DNA of 46,635 bases from Alphaproteobacteria bacterium. GTDB lineage: Bacteria > Pseudomonadota > Alphaproteobacteria > SMXQ01. A program made the translations under genes and the position numbers. The notes under the pieces were generated by a model. It was not told the DNA's origin. It was given only the letters and a program-made list of their open reading frames with translations, and did not search any database. The stretch spans positions 1-46,635 of the forward strand of contig JAURLI010000070.1 of assembly GCA_030831315.1 (NCBI GenBank), read 5' to 3'. Shown one piece after another: positions 13,490 to 30,794 of this stretch. The stretch's first letter is position 1, and every line of letters begins with the position of its first letter.

Positions 13490-14512
13490 TTGGCCATCGT
13501 CGTTCCCTTCGATGACAAACGCGACCCCGGCGCCAAGCCGTCGATCGAGGCGCTGTACCAGCTCGTCACAGACGACCTCGCGCGCGTCAACGAAGCCATC
13601 CTGCGCCACATGGAAAGCCCGGTGAGGCTCATCCCCCAGCTTGCAGGCCATATCATCGCGGCGGGCGGCAAGCGCCTGCGTCCGATGCTACTGCTGGGCG
13701 CGGCGCGGCTGTGCGGCTATCGCGGCCAGCGCCATACGGGTCTCGCCGCCGCCGTCGAGTTCATTCACACGGCGACGCTGCTGCACGACGATGTGGTCGA
13801 TGATTCGGATCTGCGCCGGGGCATGGCCACCGCCAATAACGTGTGGGGAAACAAGCCGAGCGTTCTGGTCGGCGACTTCCTGTTTTCGCGCTCGTTCCAG
13901 CTGATGGTCTCCGACGGCTCTCTCGACGTTCTCGCCATCCTGTCCAATGCGTCGGCCGTCATCGCCGAGGGCGAGGTCTTGCAACTGACCACCGCCAACG
14001 ACACGGAAACCTCCGAAGCCGCTTACCTGGAGGTCATCACCTCGAAGACCGCGACCCTGTTTGCGGCCGCGACCCGGCTCGGCGCCGTCGTTGCCGGACG
14101 CCCCAAGGTCGAGGAAGAAGCCCTGCATGCCTTCGGCCTCAACCTCGGCATCGCCTTCCAGCTGACCGATGACGTCATGGATTACGCATCAGGCGCCGAA
14201 ACCATGGGCAAGGAAACCGGCGACGACTTCCGCGAGGGCAAGGTGACGCTGCCGGTCATTTTCGCCTTCCGGCGCGGTGACGACCAGGAGCGAGCGTTCT
14301 GGCAGCGCACCATTGAGAACCTAGCACAGGATGAAGGGGACCTGGAAAAGGCCATTGGACTGATGACCCGGCATAACGCGCTAGCCGATTCTCTTGAAAG
14401 GGCACGCCATTACACCCAGCTTGCCCACGACGCCCTCGACATCTTTCCAGACAGCGACATCAGGCGGGCCTTGCTGGACGTCGTCGCGTTCTGCGCGGCG
14501 CGAACCTATTAG
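13490..14512 (+). CDS. ispB: Polyprenyl diphosphate synthase (ubiquinone side chain)
   Basis: A 340-residue trans-prenyltransferase that elongates farnesyl diphosphate with isopentenyl diphosphate to the C40-C50 tail of ubiquinone. Both Asp-rich metal sites are present: DDVVD (100-104) and DDVMD (227-231), with GGKRLRP near residue 60. Chain length (octa- or decaprenyl) cannot be read by eye. I chose TTG at 13490 because GGAG lies 6 bases upstream; ATG at 13478 in the same frame has no ribosome site and adds four residues. It diverges from the DUF2007-methyltransferase gene. The AT-rich block begins right after its stop. Confidence 0.92.
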   Translation: MAIVVPFDDKRDPGAKPSIEALYQLVTDDLARVNEAILRHMESPVRLIPQLAGHIIAAGGKRLRPMLLLGAARLCGYRGQRHTGLAAAVEFIHTATLLHDDVVDDSDLRRGMATANNVWGNKPSVLVGDFLFSRSFQLMVSDGSLDVLAILSNASAVIAEGEVLQLTTANDTETSEAAYLEVITSKTATLFAAATRLGAVVAGRPKVEEEALHAFGLNLGIAFQLTDDVMDYASGAETMGKETGDDFREGKVTLPVIFAFRRGDDQERAFWQRTIENLAQDEGDLEKAIGLMTRHNALADSLERARHYTQLAHDALDIFPDSDIRRALLDVVAFCAARTY

Positions 14513-14579
14513 AAGTCTCTTAAAACCATGGAAGGGGAACTCCGAACATGCGCCCCATCTAAGAGAAGTAGATCGACTT

Positions 14580-14990
14580 TCAAACAGATGTTGCAGAGGA
14601 AACTAGGCGCAATTCGGTACGTTTTAGGACGGATTTTATGTAAGCAATCAAAACATTTGGATTTCCGGCATTGCTAAACAATACGTCGGCGCCGGATAAA
14701 ATAACTTTGTCCTCGTTCAATTTTATTTCTCGATCTTTTTTGCAAATTACAACAACTGCCCCATTATGTTTAGCCCTCATTTCTCGCAATAAATCTAAAA
14801 CTTCTGGATTGATGTTTTTCACAAATACTAAAATCGCAGAATATGAATTGTATTTTTCTGTTTTTTCTTTTTGTTTTGAAAGCGTTTTCTTTTGAACATT
14901 AAAATTATTAGCACTTAAAAAATCGAGGAGGTTTCGATTTTCATATTTTTGAATATTTAAAGATAGTACTGATCGTCCATCAAACATCAT
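14580..14990 (-). CDS. Degenerate response-regulator receiver-like protein
   Basis: A 136-residue protein I do not recognise by name, whose strand/helix order fits a CheY-like receiver: VLSLNIQKYENRNLLDFLSA at the start, ILVFV (53-57) as strand 3, NPEVLDLLREMRAKH as helix 3, AVVVICKKD as strand 4, and GADVLFSNAGNPNVLIAYIKSVLKR as the end. The phosphoacceptor Asp, the conserved Thr/Ser and the conserved Lys are all absent (strand 3 ends V-K-N, strand 4 has Cys, and the KP site reads SN). No output domain follows. It lies downstream of the VCBS gene on the same strand, beyond a large hairpin. No good ribosome site; Met2 is an equal start. Could be a pseudo-receiver regulator or a decayed gene. 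Confidence 0.6.
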   Translation of the reverse strand: MMFDGRSVLSLNIQKYENRNLLDFLSANNFNVQKKTLSKQKEKTEKYNSYSAILVFVKNINPEVLDLLREMRAKHNGAVVVICKKDREIKLNEDKVILSGADVLFSNAGNPNVLIAYIKSVLKRTELRLVSSATSV

Positions 14991-15027
14991 GACTTAGTAC
15001 CATGAGATTTTTAACTTTACACTTAGG

Positions 15028-15066
15028 ATCCCCTAGATGCGATGCCATGCATCACATCTAGGGGAT
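15028..15066. terminator. Long inverted repeat after the VCBS gene
   Basis: Twelve perfectly complementary bases (15028-15039 with 15055-15066) continue after one C/A mismatch into five more pairs (GATGC with GCATC) closing a 3-base loop. It lies in the gap between the VCBS stop and the start of the receiver-like gene. No run of T follows on either strand, so it may be a Rho-assisted terminator, an mRNA stabiliser or a protein site rather than a simple intrinsic terminator. Confidence 0.55.
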
Positions 15067-15108
15067 TGTCTAAAAACTCACGCAATACCTTACAAAACTG
15101 GCTATTTG

Positions 15109-16749
15109 CTACCCAAGTAAATACTGGGAATAGTCAACTAACTGTTCGGGATTTTCTATAGTCTCAACAACTTCAAAAGTGGTTTCTTTTGCTCCATCAC
15201 CGAAGGTTACGCCTGTCATCCAGACGTTATCCTCGGTCAACCCGGTGTAATCTTCGAGATAACCCCAATCTTCAGTGCGGGTGCTCTTTTGATTTCCATC
15301 AATTCCAATGACAAACAAAGTGTCATCGATTGTTGGATCGCCTAGACCGAAATCACCTTGGTAGATCGTGAGATCATCCGCATCGCCGTAGCCGGCAATT
15401 TTCAAAGTGTCGTTATCGTTGAAGCCTTCATAAACATTGGTTTTATCTTGACCCTCGCTCGCCTGCGGAAAGAAGCCATGACCTGTTTGCTGTGTTCCAT
15501 GATTGTAGAGAACAGTTACTCCTGGATCATCGACAGGCGGGGGAGACGGGGGAGTATCATCATCGGCTGAACCCGTGATTGTTACGGTCACTGTTTCGAT
15601 CGCAGCTCCACCCTCATCATCATCAATCGTGACGTCATAATACTGCGTTAGGGTTTCGCCTTCACCCAGGTGATCGATATCTGCGTCATTGACGTTGAAA
15701 GTCCACTGGACTTCACCATCGACGATTGATGAAGAGAAGTTCCCAAGGTAGTCGTCGCCCTTTGCTGACGAGGAGACCGTGTGGGTGTCAGAGCGATCTA
15801 CGTCAGTAAAAGCAATTGTACCAGTGTCACTCAGAACCGCAGTATTTTCGCCTTCATCTCCATCTTCGAGTTCAGTCACGGCACCACTAAGATCTGCTTC
15901 ACCAATAACAACGGCGTCGTTGGTGCCTGTTAAGGTGATTGTAAAAGTGGATGTGTCGTTAGACCATGACGTTTCTTCGGTTTGATTTGTGAGGTCCAAC
16001 GAGTAGGTGAAGGTAGCAGTTTCTCCCGCAGATAATTCATCGGCGCCGCTCGCATCCACACTGTAGGTACCATCAGCATTCAGCGTTAAGGAGCCCAGAT
16101 CATCGCCTTCATCAACCAGACGGACCGTGTTCCCAACGGTTCCTCCATCCCAACCACTAACGGTGTTAATCCCACCCTCTGAATTGTCGTTTTCAAAGAC
16201 GTCGCCGCTTACAATTTGACCTTCAACGACATTCTCACTGTCGCTCGAGGCTTCAATTGCCACAGAAGTCTGTTCGAGGATTTTAGAGGAGTCTTCGCGA
16301 CTACCGTCAACAGTTCCAACAGAAGTCAGTCGAACGCCAAAATCAACATTTGCAAAATCTTGAAGGGTTAGATCGCGCGAAGAGGAAGACAAAGTAAATT
16401 CGTAGCTTTGAATATCGTCTTTAGCGATACCGCTTGTTCCGACTTCGATGCCTACATCATATCCTCTGTCTGAGCCCGTAAGCCCATTCATGTTAGAACC
16501 ACCGCCAAGGTTGGTAATGCTATCATTGCCAATTCGAACGTCGTTCGAGTCGGCATTGACTACAAGGCTATTCAGGAGGCTTTCATCAGCAACGTCAAAA
16601 AATAGACCTCTCAGATCGCCGACCACCCCACCTTCCTGGGTAACGTTAAAGGCGAGCGTGCCATCGCCATTTTCTGAGATGGTGACCCATACGTTAGGGT
16701 AGCCGCTTGCCGTAGAACCATCGTTAACCTGGAACGTCATCGATGCCAT
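15109..16749 (-). CDS. VCBS/cadherin-like secreted acidic protein
   Basis: A 546-residue, very acidic protein without cysteine, built of beta-rich domains. Residues 1-165 form an N-terminal domain with SENGDGTLAFNVTQEG and VDFGVRLTSVG. Residues 170-275 are an Ig/cadherin-like unit (NADGTYSVDASG). Residues 280-395 are a clear VCBS repeat (TGTIAFTDVDRSDTHTVS, VTVTITGSADDD). A proline-rich hinge (400-410) leads to a unique C-terminus with Gly/Asp-rich loops. Such repeats bind calcium and occur in adhesins and matrix proteins exported by type I systems. No N-terminal signal peptide is present, which fits that route, but no type I exporter is nearby. The ATG has GGAG 8 bases upstream. It diverges from the response regulator gene. 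Confidence 0.82.
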   Translation of the reverse strand: MASMTFQVNDGSTASGYPNVWVTISENGDGTLAFNVTQEGGVVGDLRGLFFDVADESLLNSLVVNADSNDVRIGNDSITNLGGGSNMNGLTGSDRGYDVGIEVGTSGIAKDDIQSYEFTLSSSSRDLTLQDFANVDFGVRLTSVGTVDGSREDSSKILEQTSVAIEASSDSENVVEGQIVSGDVFENDNSEGGINTVSGWDGGTVGNTVRLVDEGDDLGSLTLNADGTYSVDASGADELSAGETATFTYSLDLTNQTEETSWSNDTSTFTITLTGTNDAVVIGEADLSGAVTELEDGDEGENTAVLSDTGTIAFTDVDRSDTHTVSSSAKGDDYLGNFSSSIVDGEVQWTFNVNDADIDHLGEGETLTQYYDVTIDDDEGGAAIETVTVTITGSADDDTPPSPPPVDDPGVTVLYNHGTQQTGHGFFPQASEGQDKTNVYEGFNDNDTLKIAGYGDADDLTIYQGDFGLGDPTIDDTLFVIGIDGNQKSTRTEDWGYLEDYTGLTEDNVWMTGVTFGDGAKETTFEVVETIENPEQLVDYSQYLLG

Positions 16750-17062
16750 TGGTCTGTCTCCAGAAATTTCATGAAAATAGGGCTTTCAATTGACTGGCAG
16801 AATAACGACGGCACATCTGGAATATATGTAAATTTTGTATAAATTTTGTAACAGTATATATATCATATTTTGCAATGAGTTAGGGGGTTTTTTCTTATTT
16901 GCAGAGACATTCGGCCGTCGGTCTCAGCCAATACGGCCTTAAAAAGGCTTAGAAAAGAATGAAAATGCTGCCGTCAAGCTTTGCAGAAAAAGACCTGGAT
17001 GCTATGATCTCGGACCAGCCAATTAATAGTAAATAAAAAAAGAAACTCTCAGCATTAATTCT
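16750..17062. other. AT-rich divergent promoter region
   Basis: A 313-bp gap between the divergent VCBS and response regulator genes. It holds the 11-bp tandem repeat at 16829-16850, several TATATA stretches just to its right, and a small hairpin at 16936-16948. No open frame of coding character is seen. Both genes must be transcribed from here. Confidence 0.6.
16829..16850. promoter_or_regulatory. Perfect 11-bp tandem repeat, candidate OmpR-type operator
   Basis: The unit TAAATTTTGTA occurs twice head to tail with no spacer. OmpR/PhoB-type winged-helix regulators bind as head-to-tail dimers to direct repeats with an 11-bp period, and the only such regulator in the window is encoded 210 bp away. 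The position, 80 bp upstream of the VCBS start, suits activation of that gene and autoregulation. The site is seen; the binding is inference. Confidence 0.5.
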
Positions 17063-17752
17063 ATGACAAAAACAATACTTCTTGTCGAAGACGATGAAGT
17101 TTTAGCTAAAGTATTATTGAAATACTTTGGGGATAATGATTATTCAATAATTCATGCTTCTTCTTTATCGGCAGGGCAATTGATCCTTCAAGACCAAGTG
17201 CCGGATGCAATAATTTTGGACGCAAACCTGCCAGATGGCAGCGGTTTTGAGATGTGCCGGCAACTCCGCAAAGTTTTTTCAGGAGTTGTGGTTATGTTAA
17301 CTGGCAGGGATAGTGATAATGATAAAATTGTGGGCCTTGAACTTGGCGCAGATGATTACTTAGTAAAACCCTCAGATCCACGCGTTATTGAGGCTCACCT
17401 ATTGGCTTGCCTTAGACGCGCTAAATCAGAGCAACAGGTCCCCGTTATTAAAAATGACCTAAGATTTGGTGACCTAATTATTAATAAAGATGCGTTCGGC
17501 GTGCAATTTAAAGGCCTAAGCATCAGACTAACTACAGCAGAATTTAAACTACTTTTATTTTTTGCGGACCATCCCGGTGAAGTGCTGTCTCGTTCAGATT
17601 TATCAAATGCCCTTGGATCAGGCTCCGGTGACGATCAAGACCGATCGATTGACATGCGCGTGAGCCGCCTGCGGCGAAAACTGATTTCTGAAGAAGGAAT
17701 TAGGACTATTAGAAATAGTGGTTACTTATTTAATCCCAGCGGATGGGAGTAA
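17063..17752 (+). CDS. OmpR/PhoB-family response regulator (orphan)
   Basis: A 229-residue two-domain regulator. The receiver (1-118) has the acidic pair Glu9-Asp10, phosphoacceptor Asp53 in IILDANLPDGSG, Thr80 in MLTGRD and Lys102 in VKPSD, so it should be phosphorylatable. The C-terminal winged-helix DNA-binding domain (about 130-227) includes LTTAEFKLLLFFADHPGEVLSR and the recognition helix SIDMRVSRLRRKL. No histidine kinase lies in the window, so the partner is elsewhere. It diverges from the VCBS gene, its most likely target. AT-rich codon use like the rest of the insert. Only a weak ribosome site is seen. Confidence 0.92.
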   Translation: MTKTILLVEDDEVLAKVLLKYFGDNDYSIIHASSLSAGQLILQDQVPDAIILDANLPDGSGFEMCRQLRKVFSGVVVMLTGRDSDNDKIVGLELGADDYLVKPSDPRVIEAHLLACLRRAKSEQQVPVIKNDLRFGDLIINKDAFGVQFKGLSIRLTTAEFKLLLFFADHPGEVLSRSDLSNALGSGSGDDQDRSIDMRVSRLRRKLISEEGIRTIRNSGYLFNPSGWE

Positions 17753-17880
17753 ATTTCAGTCAATTTTTTTGAGAGCCAATATTAGTTTTGAAGGCAAACT
17801 CAGTATAATCAAGATCAATACTTGAGAAAGAACACGGATGCTTCGTCAGACTTTGTAAGACTAAATTGCAAGTTTGATCG

Positions 17881-17952: not shown

Positions 17953-18029
17953 TGGTCGGGGAGAGAGGATTCGAACCTCCGGCCCCTACGTCCCGAACGT
18001 AGTGCTCTACCAGGCTGAGCTACTCCCCG
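17953..18029 (-). tRNA. tRNA-Pro, anticodon CGG
   Basis: A complete 77-base cloverleaf including an encoded CCA. The acceptor stem is CGGGGAG with CTCCCCG and discriminator A. The D arm carries GCTC...GAGC with AGCCTGGTA. The anticodon stem CTACG/CGTAG encloses TTCGGGA, giving anticodon CGG, which reads the proline codon CCG. The T arm has GGAGG-TTCGAAT-CCTCT with one G-T pair. Every stem pairs. Confidence 0.96.
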
Positions 18030-24513: not shown

Positions 24514-24822
24514 AAACTCCGTCGCCCAGGCAACCGGGGCATGCAGGACATCGGCGATGAAACGTCTTAGCGACTTCAACGGTGTCATTCACGTCATCGT
24601 TACGGTGATCCTGCCTAAGCAGTAACTTCAGGGGCAGGTTGCGGGCCGGGCAGCGTTTCCGTCACGCTCCCAAGCTTTTTTTATTCACAGCTTTCCAGTG
24701 ATCCACCGCGATCGGAAGGGCGTAAAAGGTCCAAACCCCACTTGAGGGCCTCAGTAATGTCCCTTATCCTAGCCTCCCGTCATATGCTGGATTTCGTGCT
24801 TGTCCGGCCCCCGAGGAGCAAA
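24514..24822. other. Gap upstream of the ECF sigma gene
   Basis: A 309-bp gap after apt. It contains the ECF-type promoter at 24699-24728 and a second TGATCC at 24606 without a matching -10. The rest shows no clear terminator for apt and no gene. Confidence 0.6.
24699..24728 (+). promoter_or_regulatory. ECF11-type promoter of the sigma-chrR operon
   Basis: TGATCC (24699-24704), an 18-bp spacer ending GCG, then TAAAAG (24723-24728), about 95 bp before the sigma start. It matches the RpoE/ChrR-type pattern (TGATCC plus TA-rich -10 at 18 bp) known in Rhodobacter, and matches the promoter of the minus-strand lipid operon at 30765-30794. Autoregulation is therefore expected. Confidence 0.78.
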
Positions 24823-25395
24823 ATGGCCGAAGAGTTTGTCGACCGCAATGGCAGGGGCGACCCTGCTAGTTTGCTCCATTCAGTCGGCGCGCATGGCGAC
24901 CGCAGCGCGTTCTCAGACCTGTTCGAGCACTTTGCGCCCCGCATCAAGGCCTACTGCCTGAAGCGGGGCTCGTCTCTGAGCGCGGCAGAGGAAATCGCGC
25001 AGGAAGCGATGATCAAGGTGTGGCGGCGCGCGGCACAGTTCGATCCCGCGCGGGCCTCTGCCTCGACGTGGATCTTCGCCATCGCCCGCAACGCCCGCAT
25101 CGACGCCTTTCGCCGGGAAAAGCGGCCCGAGGTCCTGCCCGAGGATTTCGACGCGGAAGATCCGTCTTCCGACACTTTCGGTCATTTGGCCGATGCCGAG
25201 GCCGGCGGCAAACTCGTCGCCGAGATATCCACGCTTCCTCCGGATCAGGCCGAAGTCGTGCGCAAGGCATTTTTCGAAGATAAGACCCATCAGGAAATCG
25301 CCCAGGAGCTGAAGCTCCCGCTGGGCACAGTCAAATCCCGAATCCGTCTGGCGCTCGGCCGCCTGCGAAAATCTATGTCGGAGTTCCAGCCATGA
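24823..25395 (+). CDS. rpoE: ECF sigma factor of the RpoE/ChrR (ECF11) type
   Basis: A 190-residue extracytoplasmic-function sigma factor. Region 2 spans about residues 30-95 (FSDLFEHFAPRIKAYCL, AAEEIAQEAMIKVWRRAAQFD, STWIFAIARNARIDAFRR) and region 4 about 135-187 (LPPDQAEVVRKAFFEDKTHQEIAQELKLPLGTVKSRIRLALGRLR). Its partner ChrR overlaps it by 4 bp (ATGA), the arrangement of the Rhodobacter sphaeroides singlet-oxygen response. It should recognise TGATCC-N18-TA promoters. ATG at 24823 is chosen for its GAGGAG ribosome site; an open frame upstream has none and crosses the promoter region. Confidence 0.93.
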   Translation: MAEEFVDRNGRGDPASLLHSVGAHGDRSAFSDLFEHFAPRIKAYCLKRGSSLSAAEEIAQEAMIKVWRRAAQFDPARASASTWIFAIARNARIDAFRREKRPEVLPEDFDAEDPSSDTFGHLADAEAGGKLVAEISTLPPDQAEVVRKAFFEDKTHQEIAQELKLPLGTVKSRIRLALGRLRKSMSEFQP

Positions 25396-26042
25396 TCAGG
25401 CATCACATCGCCCACGATCTCCTTGTCGATTATGCATCTGGCAGCCTGCCCGAGGCTCCCTCTCTCGTCGTTGCGACGCATCTTGCCTGCTGCGCATCGT
25501 GCCGCGAGGACGTTCGCCGTATCGAAGACATCGGCGGAGCGCTGTTGGAAAGCGTCGGCACCGCATCACTTGGGCCCGATGCGCTGGCCGCCGCTCTCGA
25601 CCGGCTCGACAAGCATGAACCCGAAACGACGGAGCTTCGGTTGGACGAAGAGAGCCGCAAGGTTCTGCCCGGCCCGCTGGCACGCCACGTTCATCGCAAT
25701 CTGGGCGACCTTCGCTGGCGCCGCCTTGGCCCGTGCATCGAAGAAGCGGTGCTGGCATCCGCCTCTCCCATTTTCAAAACGGCGCTCCTGCGCGTCGCTG
25801 CCGGTGCCGCGATGCCTGCCCATACCCATGGCGGGCATGAATACACGCTGGTGCTCAAGGGCGGTATCCGGGACGGCGGCGCCGAATATCGACACGGCGA
25901 TGTCATGTCCCTCGACGATACGCACGAGCACAAACCAGTGGCCACCGAAGACGAGGAATGCATCTGTCTCGTCGTGCTCGATGCGCCCGTGCGCCTGACC
26001 GGCAGGTTTGCCCGCCTGCTCAATCCTTTCATCAAGCACTGA
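25392..26042 (+). CDS. chrR: ChrR-type zinc anti-sigma factor with cupin domain
   Basis: A 216-residue cytoplasmic protein that should hold the sigma factor inactive until stress such as singlet oxygen. The N-terminal anti-sigma domain has the zinc ligands His5, His30, Cys34 and Cys37 (HLACCASC). The C-terminal cupin has His144, His146, Glu150 and His180. These eight align by spacing with the two zinc sites described for Rhodobacter ChrR, so both sensing modules look intact. Translationally coupled to the sigma gene by an ATGA overlap; the SDR gene follows 10 bp later. Confidence 0.93.
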   Translation: MIRHHIAHDLLVDYASGSLPEAPSLVVATHLACCASCREDVRRIEDIGGALLESVGTASLGPDALAAALDRLDKHEPETTELRLDEESRKVLPGPLARHVHRNLGDLRWRRLGPCIEEAVLASASPIFKTALLRVAAGAAMPAHTHGGHEYTLVLKGGIRDGGAEYRHGDVMSLDDTHEHKPVATEDEECICLVVLDAPVRLTGRFARLLNPFIKH

Positions 26043-26052
26043 CTCGATCGCG

Positions 26053-26826
26053 ATGACGCCCGTTCCGGAGTCGGCCTGGCTGATCGGCGCCTCATCCGGG
26101 ATTGGCGCGGCGCTCGCTCGCGTACTCGCGGCGAGGGGATGGCGCGTAGTCATCAGTGCTCGCGGAACGGAAACGGCGGCGTCCGTGGCCGCCGAATTTG
26201 CGGAACTGATTTCTATACTGCCCCTGGATGTGACTGATACCCCGGCCTGCGAAGCGGCGGTTGCGGAAGCGGAAACAATCCTGGGCGGTCCACCCGATCT
26301 CGTCGTCTTCGCCGCCGGAGCGTGGCAGCCGATGGGGGTGTCGGATCTCGACCCCGCGGTCGCACGGAGCCTGATGAACGTCAATTACCTAGGTGCTGTG
26401 AACGTCCTGGCCGCCCTGCTTCCCGGATGCCGGGAGCGCCGGCGAGGCCACATTGCGGTAATTGCATCCGTCGCAGGCTATCGCGGCATTCCTCGCGCTG
26501 CGGGCTATGGACCAACAAAGGCGGCGCTGATCAATCTATGCGAATCCCTGAAGCCGGAACTCGATGCGGCCGGCGTACGACTGCGGCTGGTCGATCCAGG
26601 CTTCGTCGCCACGCCCATGACGGCGGTCAATGATTTCCCGATGCCGTTTCTGCTCGCGGCCGAAGATGCCGCCGAGCGGTTGTTCACAGCGCTGACCAGA
26701 TCGTCGCGCTTCGAAATAACGTTTCCCAAGCGCTTCACCTGGGGCCTGAAGTTCTTGCGGCTTCTCCCCTACGGTGCGTATTTCGCACTCATGCGGCGGC
26801 TCGATCGGGGCCGGAAGCGCGGCTGA
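26053..26826 (+). CDS. Short-chain dehydrogenase/reductase of the ECF cluster
   Basis: A 257-residue classical SDR: GASSGIG (12-18) binds the dinucleotide, Asn111, Ser139, Tyr152 and Lys156 form the catalytic tetrad. The C-terminus has a hydrophobic and basic tail (LKFLRLLPYGAYFALMRRLDRGRKRG) that could touch the membrane, suiting a lipid substrate. It follows chrR closely and is probably co-transcribed from the ECF promoter. The start ATG at 26053 has no clear ribosome site, suggesting coupling to chrR. It overlaps the convergent DUF3833 gene by 38 bp. Similar SDR genes accompany CFA/DUF1365/DUF3833 clusters in other Proteobacteria. Confidence 0.9.
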   Translation: MTPVPESAWLIGASSGIGAALARVLAARGWRVVISARGTETAASVAAEFAELISILPLDVTDTPACEAAVAEAETILGGPPDLVVFAAGAWQPMGVSDLDPAVARSLMNVNYLGAVNVLAALLPGCRERRRGHIAVIASVAGYRGIPRAAGYGPTKAALINLCESLKPELDAAGVRLRLVDPGFVATPMTAVNDFPMPFLLAAEDAAERLFTALTRSSRFEITFPKRFTWGLKFLRLLPYGAYFALMRRLDRGRKRG

Positions 26827-27262
26827 ACGCAATTGTGACGCGGCCGAGCGTCACGCCCCACTTGTGCATGCGCGCAATGTTCAGCATCGTGCCGTCCGCG
26901 CCAAGATACATACGATCATCGAATCCGACGACGACCTCGCGCCCACCAATTGGCAGACGCAGCCGGTAGGCCCAGCGCAGGGTATTGCCCGACGCATCGC
27001 CCCTGGCTACACCGACCACGTCCGCAGCGGTGCCCTCATAGGCATGCGGGCCGGTGCGGCGAACGCGCCAGGTGCGCGAGGACACCTCCCCGTCATTGAA
27101 GCGGAACGATTCCTCGAGAACGAAAACATCGCCATCATCGCGCCCTTCGATTTCCACGACGAACGTGCGGCGAACACGGCTAAAGCGGTCCTCGACAAGC
27201 CCGTGGGCACGCGTCCGGCCTGCAAAAAATTCTTCGATCCGAAGTTCGTTCTGATCGCTCAT
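26789..27262 (-). CDS. DUF3833 family protein
   Basis: A 157-residue protein matching DUF3833 from IEEFFAGRTRAHGLVEDRFSRVRRTF through RTWRVRRTGPHAYEGTAADVVGVARG to MHKWGVTLGRVTIAF. A beta-rich, lipocalin-like fold is likely (inference). As I remember the family, many members are lipoproteins, but here no signal peptide precedes the domain and the ATG overlaps the stop of the CFA gene (ATGA). Last gene of the minus-strand ECF operon; role unknown, presumably handling a modified lipid. Confidence 0.88.
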   Translation of the reverse strand: MSDQNELRIEEFFAGRTRAHGLVEDRFSRVRRTFVVEIEGRDDGDVFVLEESFRFNDGEVSSRTWRVRRTGPHAYEGTAADVVGVARGDASGNTLRWAYRLRLPIGGREVVVGFDDRMYLGADGTMLNIARMHKWGVTLGRVTIAFSRASGPDRAAA

Positions 27263-28494
27263 TTAGAATTCTCCGGTTTCTGGAAACTGAATTGACGCAC
27301 GTCAATGCGCCCCGAACGGAAGCCCCCTTCGCAATAAGCGAGATAAAAAGCCCACAGGCGGGAAAATTTGCGATCACGCCCCAGAGAAGCGAGAGAATCC
27401 CTAGCTGCTAAGAAGCGACCACGCCATTCCGCGAGGGTACGGCCATAATCGACACCGAAGCCGAAATCCCTGCGGTGCGACAGGCCAACCCTATCCGCCA
27501 GTTCCCTGACGATTGTCGGGGTCGGCAGCATCCCGCCAGGAAAAACCTGCATCTGGATGAAATCCGGACGGCGCCTGTATCGGTCGAAGAGTTCGTCGGC
27601 AATGGTGATGACTTGGATTCCCACGCGCCCGCCCGGCGCAACGCGTTCGGCGATACGGCCGAAATAAACCGGCCAGTAGGCCTCGCCGACCGCTTCCATC
27701 ATCTCGATCGACACGACATGGTCGAAACGGCCCTCAACGTCCCGGTAATCGCAAAGGCGCACATCCACGAGATCGGCAAGACCTGCCCGCGCGATCCTGT
27801 CGCGGGCATAAGCAAGCTGCTCACTCGAAAGGGTGAGTGCTGTCACCCGCAGGCCGTAATCGCGCGCTGCAATCTCGGCAAGGCCACCCCAGCCGCAGCC
27901 GATCTCGAGGATATGCTGTCCGGGCTTCGAACGGAGGGAGTCGAGAAGACGGCGGTATTTAGCTTCCTGCGCCTGCTCAAGGGTAAGGCCGGGGCGAACG
28001 AACAATGCCGAGGAATAGGTCATGCTCTCGTCGAGCCACAGCGCATAGAAGTCGTTGCCAAGATCATAATGGAAGGAGATGTTGCGCCTCGATCCGCGCC
28101 GGGTATTGGTGCGCAGCCAGTGGCGGAAACGGCGCCACGGCCGGACGGCCCAGGCGAAGTTTGGCGCCGGGCCGCCAAGATCGAGGTTACGCGCCGCCAA
28201 TTCGACCACGGCAGACGGATCCGGGCTGTCCCATTCGCCCTGCGCGTAACTATTGGCGAGCCCCACAGCCTGGCCGGCGAATATCCGCCAGAGCGCCCGC
28301 CAGCTGTGAATTTCCGCCCGCGCCAAAGGGCCGGGCTGTTCGCCGCGCAAAGTCACCGCACTACCGTCGGGCAGCACAAGGGAGAGACTGCCCAGACGAA
28401 TCCAGCGCCCGAAGCAGGCAATCAGGCGCGCCGCCGCTCCACCGCGAACGGCCCCGTATCGAAGCTGGGGGGCGTCGTCAGCACTCATTTGCAT
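27259..28494 (-). CDS. CFA-synthase-like fatty acid methyltransferase (UfaM-like candidate)
   Basis: A 411-residue SAM-dependent enzyme that methylates unsaturated acyl chains in phospholipids. It has HYDLGNDFY (142-150), DESMTYSSALF, the SAM motif ILEIGCGWGG (195-204) and FGVDYGRTL. Against E. coli Cfa, Glu239 and Tyr317 are kept (Glu267, Tyr350), but the bicarbonate-site Cys139 is Ser162 and His266 is Gln294. This suggests a different end product, for example a methylated trans-unsaturated chain as made by UfaM in the furan fatty acid route of Rhodobacter (inference). Start at 28494 (Met1) or 28488 (Met3); ribosome site weak. Second-to-last gene of the operon. Confidence 0.92.
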   Translation of the reverse strand: MQMSADDAPQLRYGAVRGGAAARLIACFGRWIRLGSLSLVLPDGSAVTLRGEQPGPLARAEIHSWRALWRIFAGQAVGLANSYAQGEWDSPDPSAVVELAARNLDLGGPAPNFAWAVRPWRRFRHWLRTNTRRGSRRNISFHYDLGNDFYALWLDESMTYSSALFVRPGLTLEQAQEAKYRRLLDSLRSKPGQHILEIGCGWGGLAEIAARDYGLRVTALTLSSEQLAYARDRIARAGLADLVDVRLCDYRDVEGRFDHVVSIEMMEAVGEAYWPVYFGRIAERVAPGGRVGIQVITIADELFDRYRRRPDFIQMQVFPGGMLPTPTIVRELADRVGLSHRRDFGFGVDYGRTLAEWRGRFLAARDSLASLGRDRKFSRLWAFYLAYCEGGFRSGRIDVRQFSFQKPENSK

Positions 28495-28546
28495 GATCCC
28501 GGAGCCGATGTTGATAGTCGTTTTACGCTCGAACCAGGGTGCCGGA

Positions 28547-29347
28547 TCATCGCCGCGCCTCCAGCTCTCCGACGGTCACGGCGACGGCCGGCTTCTTCGG
28601 CTTCCTGAACACGGGCACGCCTTTTAGCCAAAGTCGAAGCGCGTGCCAGTGAATGGCGGCAATGACTTTGAGGGTCATCAGCGGATGTGCCGCGACGGCA
28701 AGGGCCAGCGCGCCGTCGGTCAATTGCCGCCGCCGCCCCGCCAGCATGGCGGACAGGCCAAGACCGCCCTCGAAGTGGTCCTCGATCCCGACGACGATGC
28801 GTTCGCCAGGGTGGCTGAGGCGGAACTCGTAACGCGCCTCCATCGGGATGAAGGGCGAGACGTGAAAATCCTTGGTCACGGTCTGCCGGATGGTGCCGCT
28901 GCGCGCCACCGACCCGTCAACCGGGAGGAGGTAGCCATGCATTTCCCCGAAGGTATTGCGCACCTCGTGCAACACAGCGATCAGACGGGCCTCGCGGTCG
29001 TAGCAGTAGTAGATGCTGAGAGGATTGAATACGTATCCCCACATGCGCGGGAAACAGGCGATATAGGTGCGCCCCTCGGGATCAAACAACCCTGCGGCCC
29101 GAAGCTGGGCCTCGACCCATTCACGGGTGGTGCTGCCGTCCATCGCACCGTGATCGGCGTCATGGAAACCAAGAACGCCGAACCGGTTATAGGCGAGAAG
29201 CCTCAGCCCGCGCGCGAGACTGTCGATGCCGCCAAGATCAAGGAGCAGGAAAAAAACCCGGTAATCGAGACGATGACGCACCGGCCGGTGCCGCAGGTGA
29301 AGTACCCGGCCGAGATAGAGCGCACTTTCCGGAAACCTGTCCTTCAT
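28547..29347 (-). CDS. DUF1365 family protein
   Basis: A 266-residue protein with the DUF1365 core: ESALYLGRVLHLRHRPVRHRLDYRVF, YIACFPRMWGYVFNPLSIYYCYD, VRNTFGEMHGYLLP and KDFHVSPFIPMEARYEFR. It probably associates with membranes or lipids; no reaction is established to my knowledge, though it nearly always lies beside CFA-like methyltransferases and FAD oxidoreductases. ATG at 29347 is favoured, 14 bp after the previous stop; an upstream ATG at 29401 would overlap that gene by 40 bp and lengthen the protein with a Gly/Ala stretch. Second gene of the minus-strand ECF operon. Confidence 0.9.
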   Translation of the reverse strand: MKDRFPESALYLGRVLHLRHRPVRHRLDYRVFFLLLDLGGIDSLARGLRLLAYNRFGVLGFHDADHGAMDGSTTREWVEAQLRAAGLFDPEGRTYIACFPRMWGYVFNPLSIYYCYDREARLIAVLHEVRNTFGEMHGYLLPVDGSVARSGTIRQTVTKDFHVSPFIPMEARYEFRLSHPGERIVVGIEDHFEGGLGLSAMLAGRRRQLTDGALALAVAAHPLMTLKVIAAIHWHALRLWLKGVPVFRKPKKPAVAVTVGELEARR

Positions 29348-29361
29348 GCTTTCGGCCCGAC

Positions 29362-30705
29362 CTATTGCGCCGCCCGTGCGACCCGAGGCGTAACTTCCCA
29401 AGGAGGCGAAACGCCCATGGCACTTGCCGCCGCGATTCCCGACGCAAAGGCATCCTCATGGAAACCATAGCCGAAATAACTGCCGCAGAACCATGTTTTG
29501 CGCCGCCCCTGGATTTCGCGAAGGCGGGCCTGTGCGGAAATCCCCGCAACATCGAAAACCGGATGGCTGTAATCGAAACTCGCGAGAACGCTCTCGGGAG
29601 CCGGTTCGAAGGGCGGGTTTAGGGTTACAAAGACAGGCCCGGCATCGCCAAAGTTCTGCAACCGGTTCATCCAGTAGGTCACTCCCTGGGCCCCATCGGG
29701 ACCTTGGGGCGCAATGTAATTCCACGCCGCCCAAGCGGTGCGGCGGCGCGGCATGAGAGCGCGGTCGCGGTGCAGCACCACGCGGTTGGGCTTGTAGGTA
29801 AAGGCCCCGAGGACATTGCTCTCGGCAGCATCAGGATCGCCGAGCATCCGCAAAGCCTGATCCGCATGGGCGGCGATCACGACACCGTCGAACCGCTCGG
29901 TGACATCGCCCGTCAGTGTCACGGAGACATTCATGCCGGAGCGCGTCACCGTGCTGACCGGGCTGCCCAAGCGGACCACAGCACCATTGTCGGTGACATA
30001 TTGGAGGATGCGGCGCACATACTCGCGACTGCCGCCCGTGACCGTTCTCCAGCGCGGCCGGTTCGCCAGTCGCAACAATCCGTGAACCTCAAAAAACCGC
30101 ACCAGCGTCGCCGCGGGCATATCCTCCACTGTGCCCTGCGGCTGCGACCAGATCGCTGCTGCCATCGGAGCCAGGTGATCGTCGCGGAAACTTGCGGGAT
30201 AGCCCCTGCGCGTGAAGTACTTTCCCAAGGTCTCGCCGGTGACCTCAAGCGCCGGGAGGTCCTCGAGCGCCTCGTTATAAAACCGACGCAGGCCGTAAAG
30301 CATGGCCCAGAAACGCGGTCGCAGAAGATTACTCGCCTGCGCCAAAAGCCCGCCCGGAAACCGCCCGGAATACTCGAAGTCTCCATCCCCGCAGGAAACG
30401 GAGAAAGACATTTCGCTCTTCTGGCTTTCAACACCGAGAAAGTCGAAGGCAGCACAAAGTGTCGGGTAGTTGACCGGGTTGAAGACGATAAACCCCGTAT
30501 CGACGGCCAAAGAGCCCGCAGGGTCATCCACGACCACCGTGTTGCAATGCCCGCCCGGCCTAGTGTCTGCCTCGAACAGATGAACGTCATATTCGCGGCA
30601 AAGCGTTAGCGCCGCCCCGAGGCCGGCCGCGCCGGTGCCGATGACGGCTATGCGTCCACGGCGCAACGCTGCCGGATTGATTGCAAAATGGGCGTTTTCG
30701 GTCAT
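29362..30705 (-). CDS. FAD-dependent oxidoreductase (amine-oxidase fold), lipid cluster
   Basis: A 447-residue flavoprotein. The dinucleotide-binding VIGTGAAGLGAALTL starts near residue 21, with FEADTRPGGHCNT after it, and the C-terminal FCGSYFGYGFHEDAFASG closes the FAD site. This COG2907-like group is related to phytoene/fatty acid desaturases, so acting on acyl chains is plausible; a counterpart of UfaD or UfaO is possible but I cannot say which. First gene of the operon, 60 bp downstream of an ECF11-type promoter. Oxygen-dependent flavin chemistry would fit a stress-induced fatty acid oxidation. Confidence 0.9.
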   Translation of the reverse strand: MTENAHFAINPAALRRGRIAVIGTGAAGLGAALTLCREYDVHLFEADTRPGGHCNTVVVDDPAGSLAVDTGFIVFNPVNYPTLCAAFDFLGVESQKSEMSFSVSCGDGDFEYSGRFPGGLLAQASNLLRPRFWAMLYGLRRFYNEALEDLPALEVTGETLGKYFTRRGYPASFRDDHLAPMAAAIWSQPQGTVEDMPAATLVRFFEVHGLLRLANRPRWRTVTGGSREYVRRILQYVTDNGAVVRLGSPVSTVTRSGMNVSVTLTGDVTERFDGVVIAAHADQALRMLGDPDAAESNVLGAFTYKPNRVVLHRDRALMPRRRTAWAAWNYIAPQGPDGAQGVTYWMNRLQNFGDAGPVFVTLNPPFEPAPESVLASFDYSHPVFDVAGISAQARLREIQGRRKTWFCGSYFGYGFHEDAFASGIAAASAMGVSPPWEVTPRVARAAQ

Positions 30706-30764
30706 CGGACGATTAGGACAATAATCTGTTTATTAAATTTAGGTTTTAGGCGTGTAGCGCGCCT

Positions 30765-30794
30765 CCTTTACGCGGTACGTCAACAGACGGATCA
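30765..30794 (-). promoter_or_regulatory. ECF11-type promoter of the FAD-DUF1365-CFA-DUF3833 operon
   Basis: On the minus strand TGATCC (30794-30789), an 18-bp spacer ending GCG, then TAAAGG (30770-30765), about 60 bp before the FAD oxidoreductase ATG. Same hexamer, same spacing, same GCG-TAAA junction as the sigma-chrR promoter, and the base run before TGATCC is CCGG here and CCAG there. This is strong internal evidence for one regulon. Confidence 0.8.

Follow-up and report, generated by a model that had tools for sequence, protein, structure and literature searches.

An RpoE-ChrR (ECF11) unit predicted to drive furan fatty acid synthesis under photo-oxidative stress in an uncultured alphaproteobacterial family

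The closest known system to the locus described here is the RpoE-ChrR regulon of Rhodobacter sphaeroides, which includes rpoE-chrR, RSP_1087-1091, cfaS/ufaM, phrA, folE2 and RSP_1409; photolyase, folE2, the fasciclin gene RSP_1409, cfaS and RSP_1087-1091 are all listed as members (PMC7074977). The perfect RpoE promoter of this species has been described for Pos19 as TGATCC-N15-GCGTA (PMC5036791), a ChIP-based consensus of TGATCC-N16-CGTA has been obtained for the P. syringae homologue (PMC5507510), and the same promoter elements, with a mapped start, are known for Shewanella RpoE2 (PMC4336711). According to Dufour et al. 2008, as cited in PMC6852236, a core regulon extends across proteobacteria, non-phototrophs included. 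The ChrR zinc ligands of R. sphaeroides are His6, His31, Cys35, Cys38, His141, His143, Glu147 and His177, of which E147 and H177 are required for the response to singlet oxygen and organic hydroperoxides, and furan lipids are also needed for ChrR turnover, which constitutes a positive feedback (PMC6852236). These lipids are made in R. sphaeroides and Rhodopseudomonas palustris by UfaM, which methylates cis-vaccenoyl chains, by UfaD, which then desaturates the product, and by UfaO, a DUF1365 protein with which O2-derived oxygen is added to give the furan fatty acid; in R. palustris, RPA2571-2570-2569 correspond to ufaD-ufaO-ufaM and these genes suffice for furan fatty acids (PMC7380195).

The window, i.e. 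the whole 46.6-kb stretch of DNA that was analysed, carries a 6-kb cluster that very probably represents an RpoE-ChrR (ECF11) unit by which furan fatty acid synthesis is switched on under photo-oxidative stress. It shares with R. sphaeroides the sigma factor, a ChrR with all zinc ligands, the TGATCC-N15-GCGTA promoter, the UfaD, UfaO, UfaM and SDR gene set and, in other parts of the genome, the sites at photolyase and folE. It differs in that its operons are convergent, ufaM, which is remote in R. sphaeroides, is part of the ufaD operon and has a promoter of its own, an RSP_1089-type symporter gene is absent from the cluster and no convincing rpoH site occurs in the genome. The same three gene families occur in the same order in R. 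palustris, but in the window they are followed by a DUF3833 gene, face the sigma-chrR-SDR operon and include the extra ufaM promoter. Finally, the promoter consensus and the photolyase and cfa-type targets are shared with the ECF11 regulons of P. syringae (PSPTO_1043) and Shewanella (RpoE2), and FAD/DUF1365-type targets with that of P. syringae, although gene order and additional targets differ from both. The unit is mostly known, and what it adds is small: a promoter specific to ufaM and the signature in the active site of the ufaM product.

The sigma factor gene (24823..25395, + strand) encodes an RpoE homologue with Pfam Sigma70 r2 and r4 domains, whose best match among solved structures is R. 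sphaeroides RpoE (2q1z, E 1.5e-47), the next one being 28 orders weaker (1.8e-19). Its ORF overlaps at positions 25392-25395 with that of chrR (25392..26042, +), as expected for an ECF11 pair in which an RpoE-like sigma factor and ChrR are co-transcribed. The ChrR product scores 198 bits against TIGR02451 (cut-off 124.5) and aligns over nearly its whole length with R. sphaeroides ChrR (2z2s, E 8e-40). In the alignment to 2Z2S, the eight zinc ligands have their counterparts in H5, H30, C34 and C37 of an HHCC zinc anti-sigma domain (ASD) and in H144, H146, E150 and H180 of the H-H-E-H set of the cupin domain, in agreement with what had been read from the sequence alone. The operon ends with a short-chain dehydrogenase gene (SDR; 26053..26826, +; PF00106 E 7.5e-38; cf. 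RSP_1087).

Two promoter-like sites had been reported in the sequence-only reading, one per operon, each with TGATCC, 18 bp ending in GCG and TAAA(A/G)G, correctly oriented and 60-95 bp from the first gene, and re-reading of the letters found them as described. The first (24699..24725, +) has TGATCC at 24699-24704 and TAAAAG at 24723-24728, 94 bp before the ATG of the sigma gene at 24823; the second (30768..30794, -) has TGATCC at 30794-30789 and TAAAGG, about 60 bp from the ATG of ufaD at 30705. In published notation both read TGATCC-N15-GCGTA, identical to the ECF11 consensus, and both are exact matches to TGATCC-N16-CGTAA. A genome scan for TGATCC-N17/18-TAAA had been proposed as a check, and searching the 2.7-Mb draft genome by pattern for TGATCC-N16-CGTAA yielded seven exact occurrences, site 1 among them, when 0.69 would be expected under a first-order Markov model. 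Three of these occur in the window (0.012 expected), all of them inside the cluster, so that the claim of two matching promoters holds for both sites but the count rises to three, a site at 28549-28523 having been overlooked (see below). The TGATCC-N16-CGTA element that precedes the sigma operon predicts autoregulation.

Conservation of these sites was assessed within 200 bp of each gene in a broad set of 80 loci, mostly from alpha- and gammaproteobacteria, which were picked by UfaD protein search and are consequently biased toward ufaD-bearing loci. Exact TGATCC-N16-CGTA was found before 47 of 61 sigma genes and before 29 of 76 ufaD genes (49 of 76 when up to one mismatch was allowed), but before none of the 79 ufaO or 59 chrR genes, and it occurred in 1.1% of random segments of the same loci. 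Homology, the published consensus and conservation across loci all support the proposal that both operons carry the motif of their own ECF11/ChrR pair.

By analogy with the homologues named above, the sigma factor would be held by ChrR, through its zinc anti-sigma domain, in the unstressed cell. Singlet oxygen or organic hydroperoxides would lead to ChrR breakdown, and the freed sigma factor would bind and transcribe its own sigma-chrR-SDR operon and the facing ufaD-ufaO-ufaM-DUF3833 operon, with a second transcription of ufaM from the promoter within that operon; photolyase and folE genes outside the window would probably be transcribed as well. UfaM would then methylate cis-vaccenoyl chains on phospholipids, UfaD would desaturate the product, and UfaO would close the furan ring with O2-derived oxygen to give 9M5-FuFA, the product expected of this pathway from cis-vaccenate, the furan being expected to scavenge oxidants. 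For singlet oxygen as the inducer, for the breakdown of ChrR and for the feedback by lipids, R. sphaeroides serves as the model (PMC6852236), and for the stress signal more generally Rhodobacter and Caulobacter. There is some chance, although a minority one, that the pair answers mainly to organic hydroperoxide, cadmium, UV-A or blue light, with singlet oxygen playing a minor part: in Caulobacter, the SigE-ChrR response extends beyond singlet oxygen to cadmium, organic hydroperoxide and UV-A, as cited in PMC6852236, but the counterparts of R. sphaeroides E147 and H177 are both conserved in the window ChrR and photolyase co-occurs with ChrR.

The facing operon converges on the first, as had been noted; with the SDR gene ending at 26826 and the DUF3833 gene at 26789, the two share 38 bp at their 3' ends. 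It starts with ufaD (29362..30705, -), which encodes an FAD amine-oxidase-like protein by Pfam (PF01593/PF13450), predicted to be an acyl desaturase and placed as in RPA2571-2570-2569, followed by ufaO (28547..29347, -), a DUF1365 gene (PF07103 E 2.1e-79) whose product is the predicted furan-forming oxygenase. Next come a gene for a UfaM-type SAM-dependent acyl methyltransferase of the CFA family (27259..28494, -; PF02353) and a DUF3833 gene (26789..27262, -; PF12915 E 1.5e-51). The DUF1365 gene thus lies beside an FAD desaturase and a CFA-type methyltransferase gene in the R. palustris order. These identities are assigned from protein families and gene order. What had been read as a lipid-modification cluster is upheld as such and can be sharpened: since furan fatty acids are the products of ufaD-ufaO-ufaM homologues in Rhodobacter and Rhodopseudomonas, the facing operon is predicted to make furan rather than cyclopropane fatty acids.

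The window UfaM has S-E-Q-I-Y where true CFAs have C-E-H-I-Y, i.e. Ser and Gln at the positions of E. coli Cfa Cys139 and His266, with E239, I268 and Y317 retained. Its bicarbonate site is therefore unlike that of classical CFA, although this is not an established defining feature of the furan pathway. The Gln for His266 is present in all 72 complete cluster-associated CFA homologues (loci L022-L101), and Cys139 is replaced by Ser or Ala in all but one of them, whereas Cys and His are kept in the second CFA of the window genome (L134), in three extra CFA copies in the loci and in the Lactobacillus enzyme. Plant cyclopropane synthases share the Gln and, partly, the Ser (PMC3132707), so that the signature is a clade marker and no proof of product; in an E. 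coli strain with Halomonas UfaM, cyclic fatty acids were also present. It is nevertheless improbable that the sigma factor controls the synthesis of cyclopropane or cyclopropene acyl chains by this cluster instead. UfaM indeed has a CFA-family fold, its NCBIfam and PDB matches are cyclopropane synthases, and the cotton CPS enzymes that bear this name have Ser and Gln at the same positions (PMC3132707), but a DUF1365 gene adjoins the CFA-like gene, the gene order is that which suffices for furan fatty acids in R. palustris, and a classical CFA with Cys and His is encoded separately in the genome.

The third ECF11 site (28523..28549, -) is an exact match located in the 52-bp gap between ufaO and ufaM, its TGA being the ufaO stop codon. 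In two other genomes of the family, G008 and G010 (contig C246, apparently JAOTVC010000124), a site is found at the identical place, starting on the ufaO stop codon within the same gene order, and the spacers of the window, G008 and G010 sites differ (GGCACCCTGGTTCGAG, GATACGGTGTTTCGGC and AAGCCGGCCTTGCGTC), with CGTAG replacing CGTAA in G010. The TGATCC and CGTA boxes are kept while the spacer is free to vary, which points to a functional site. A chance match is very unlikely, for although the TGA comes free with the stop codon and an exact counterpart is lacking in 72 of the 73 broad-set relatives, the other eight bases match in the window and in G008, and seven of eight in G010 with the CGTA core intact, around unrelated spacers. 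Among the 73 CFA genes of the broad set, an exact site within 200 bp upstream was found once, on the same G010 contig, so the ufaM promoter looks family-specific. This separate promoter, conserved in three clusters and in this family only, is a modest new point.

Outside the window, an ECF11-like site (exact or with one mismatch) was found 25 bp before folE and another just upstream of the sole photolyase gene of the same genome. In G010 the photolyase site occupies almost the same position, with one mismatch, and it is weaker in G008 (two mismatches); each of these genomes also carries a second folE, which has an ECF11-like site, unlike their other folE. Photolyase, folE2 and a fasciclin gene occur with ECF11-like sites on one contig in G008, while in G010 folE2 and the fasciclin gene adjoin the sigma gene; a one-mismatch site is found near the fasciclin gene, which lies beside folE2 in the former and beside the sigma gene in the latter. 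A further exact site (contig C23 of the window genome, 37062-37088; locus L103) lies 65 bp upstream of a DUF1150 gene that adjoins an hsp20-type gene, making the DUF1150 gene a possible additional regulon member. Downstream of the G010 photolyase gene, a TspO/MBR gene (L198, 3422-4261) was observed with exact TGATCC-N16-CGTAA upstream.

Other candidates were set aside. An exact site precedes the sole rpoH gene and falls in the 3'-end codons of rluD (D-P-L-Y-G-G-R-R-K); these codons are kept (CGATCC...CGCAAG) in the same-genus genome devoid of ECF11, and no such site is present in the other ECF11 genomes, which probably makes it a coincidence. Another exact site (C13:11556) lies inside the coding region of a tricarboxylate-transporter-type protein and is attributed to chance, single-mismatch sites on C48, C71, C30 and C38, at C23:40165 and at position 1955 of the window are in coding sequence or have no sensible downstream gene, and the site upstream of hemE (AGTAA) is weak.

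Full-length ChrR, DUF1365 (ufaO) and photolyase are found in the same five of 11 family genomes, and none of the three in the other six, the same-genus genome included. If these occurrences were independent, the probability of one such match would be 1/462, a figure weakened by the relatedness of the genomes and by the 8% contamination of G010. Two ECF11-ufa clusters were observed in G010 (L189 on C246 and L190 on C353), one convergent like that of the window and the other divergent, and may correspond either to a true duplication or to the contamination. In G008 (L188, 972-1330) and G010 (L189, 3794-4150), two conserved small ORFs, one of which encodes a short, helix-rich, probably membrane protein, were seen between the ECF11-like site and ufaD; they are absent from the window ufaD operon.

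Elsewhere in the window, a stretch of low GC content (14500-17800; 45% versus about 63% around) adjoins a tRNA gene (17956-18029, -) and looks like a genomic island. It encodes a 546-aa repeat-rich protein (15109-16749) and a 136-aa protein, both without Pfam match, as well as an OmpR-type response regulator (17063-17752).

One speculative reading, which we consider possible but doubtful, is that in this uncultured family an ECF11 promoter was acquired within the ufa operon for UfaM alone, the enzyme that opens the pathway. Under stress, the rise of methylated intermediates (11Me-12t-18:1) would then be uncoupled from furan formation, and the feedback of the lipids on ChrR would be adjusted in a manner specific to this lineage. 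In the same reading, Gln in place of His in the active site would mark the methyl-transfer branch of the CFA family. As a simple marker, Gln at the bicarbonate site, usually with Ser or Ala, may help to separate UfaM from cyclopropane synthases that are annotated alike. Overall, these data assign a predicted furan fatty acid response to a family of uncultured alphaproteobacteria represented by draft genomes. In this family the ECF11 unit, ufaO and photolyase are either all found or all missing, as would fit a module linked to light exposure.
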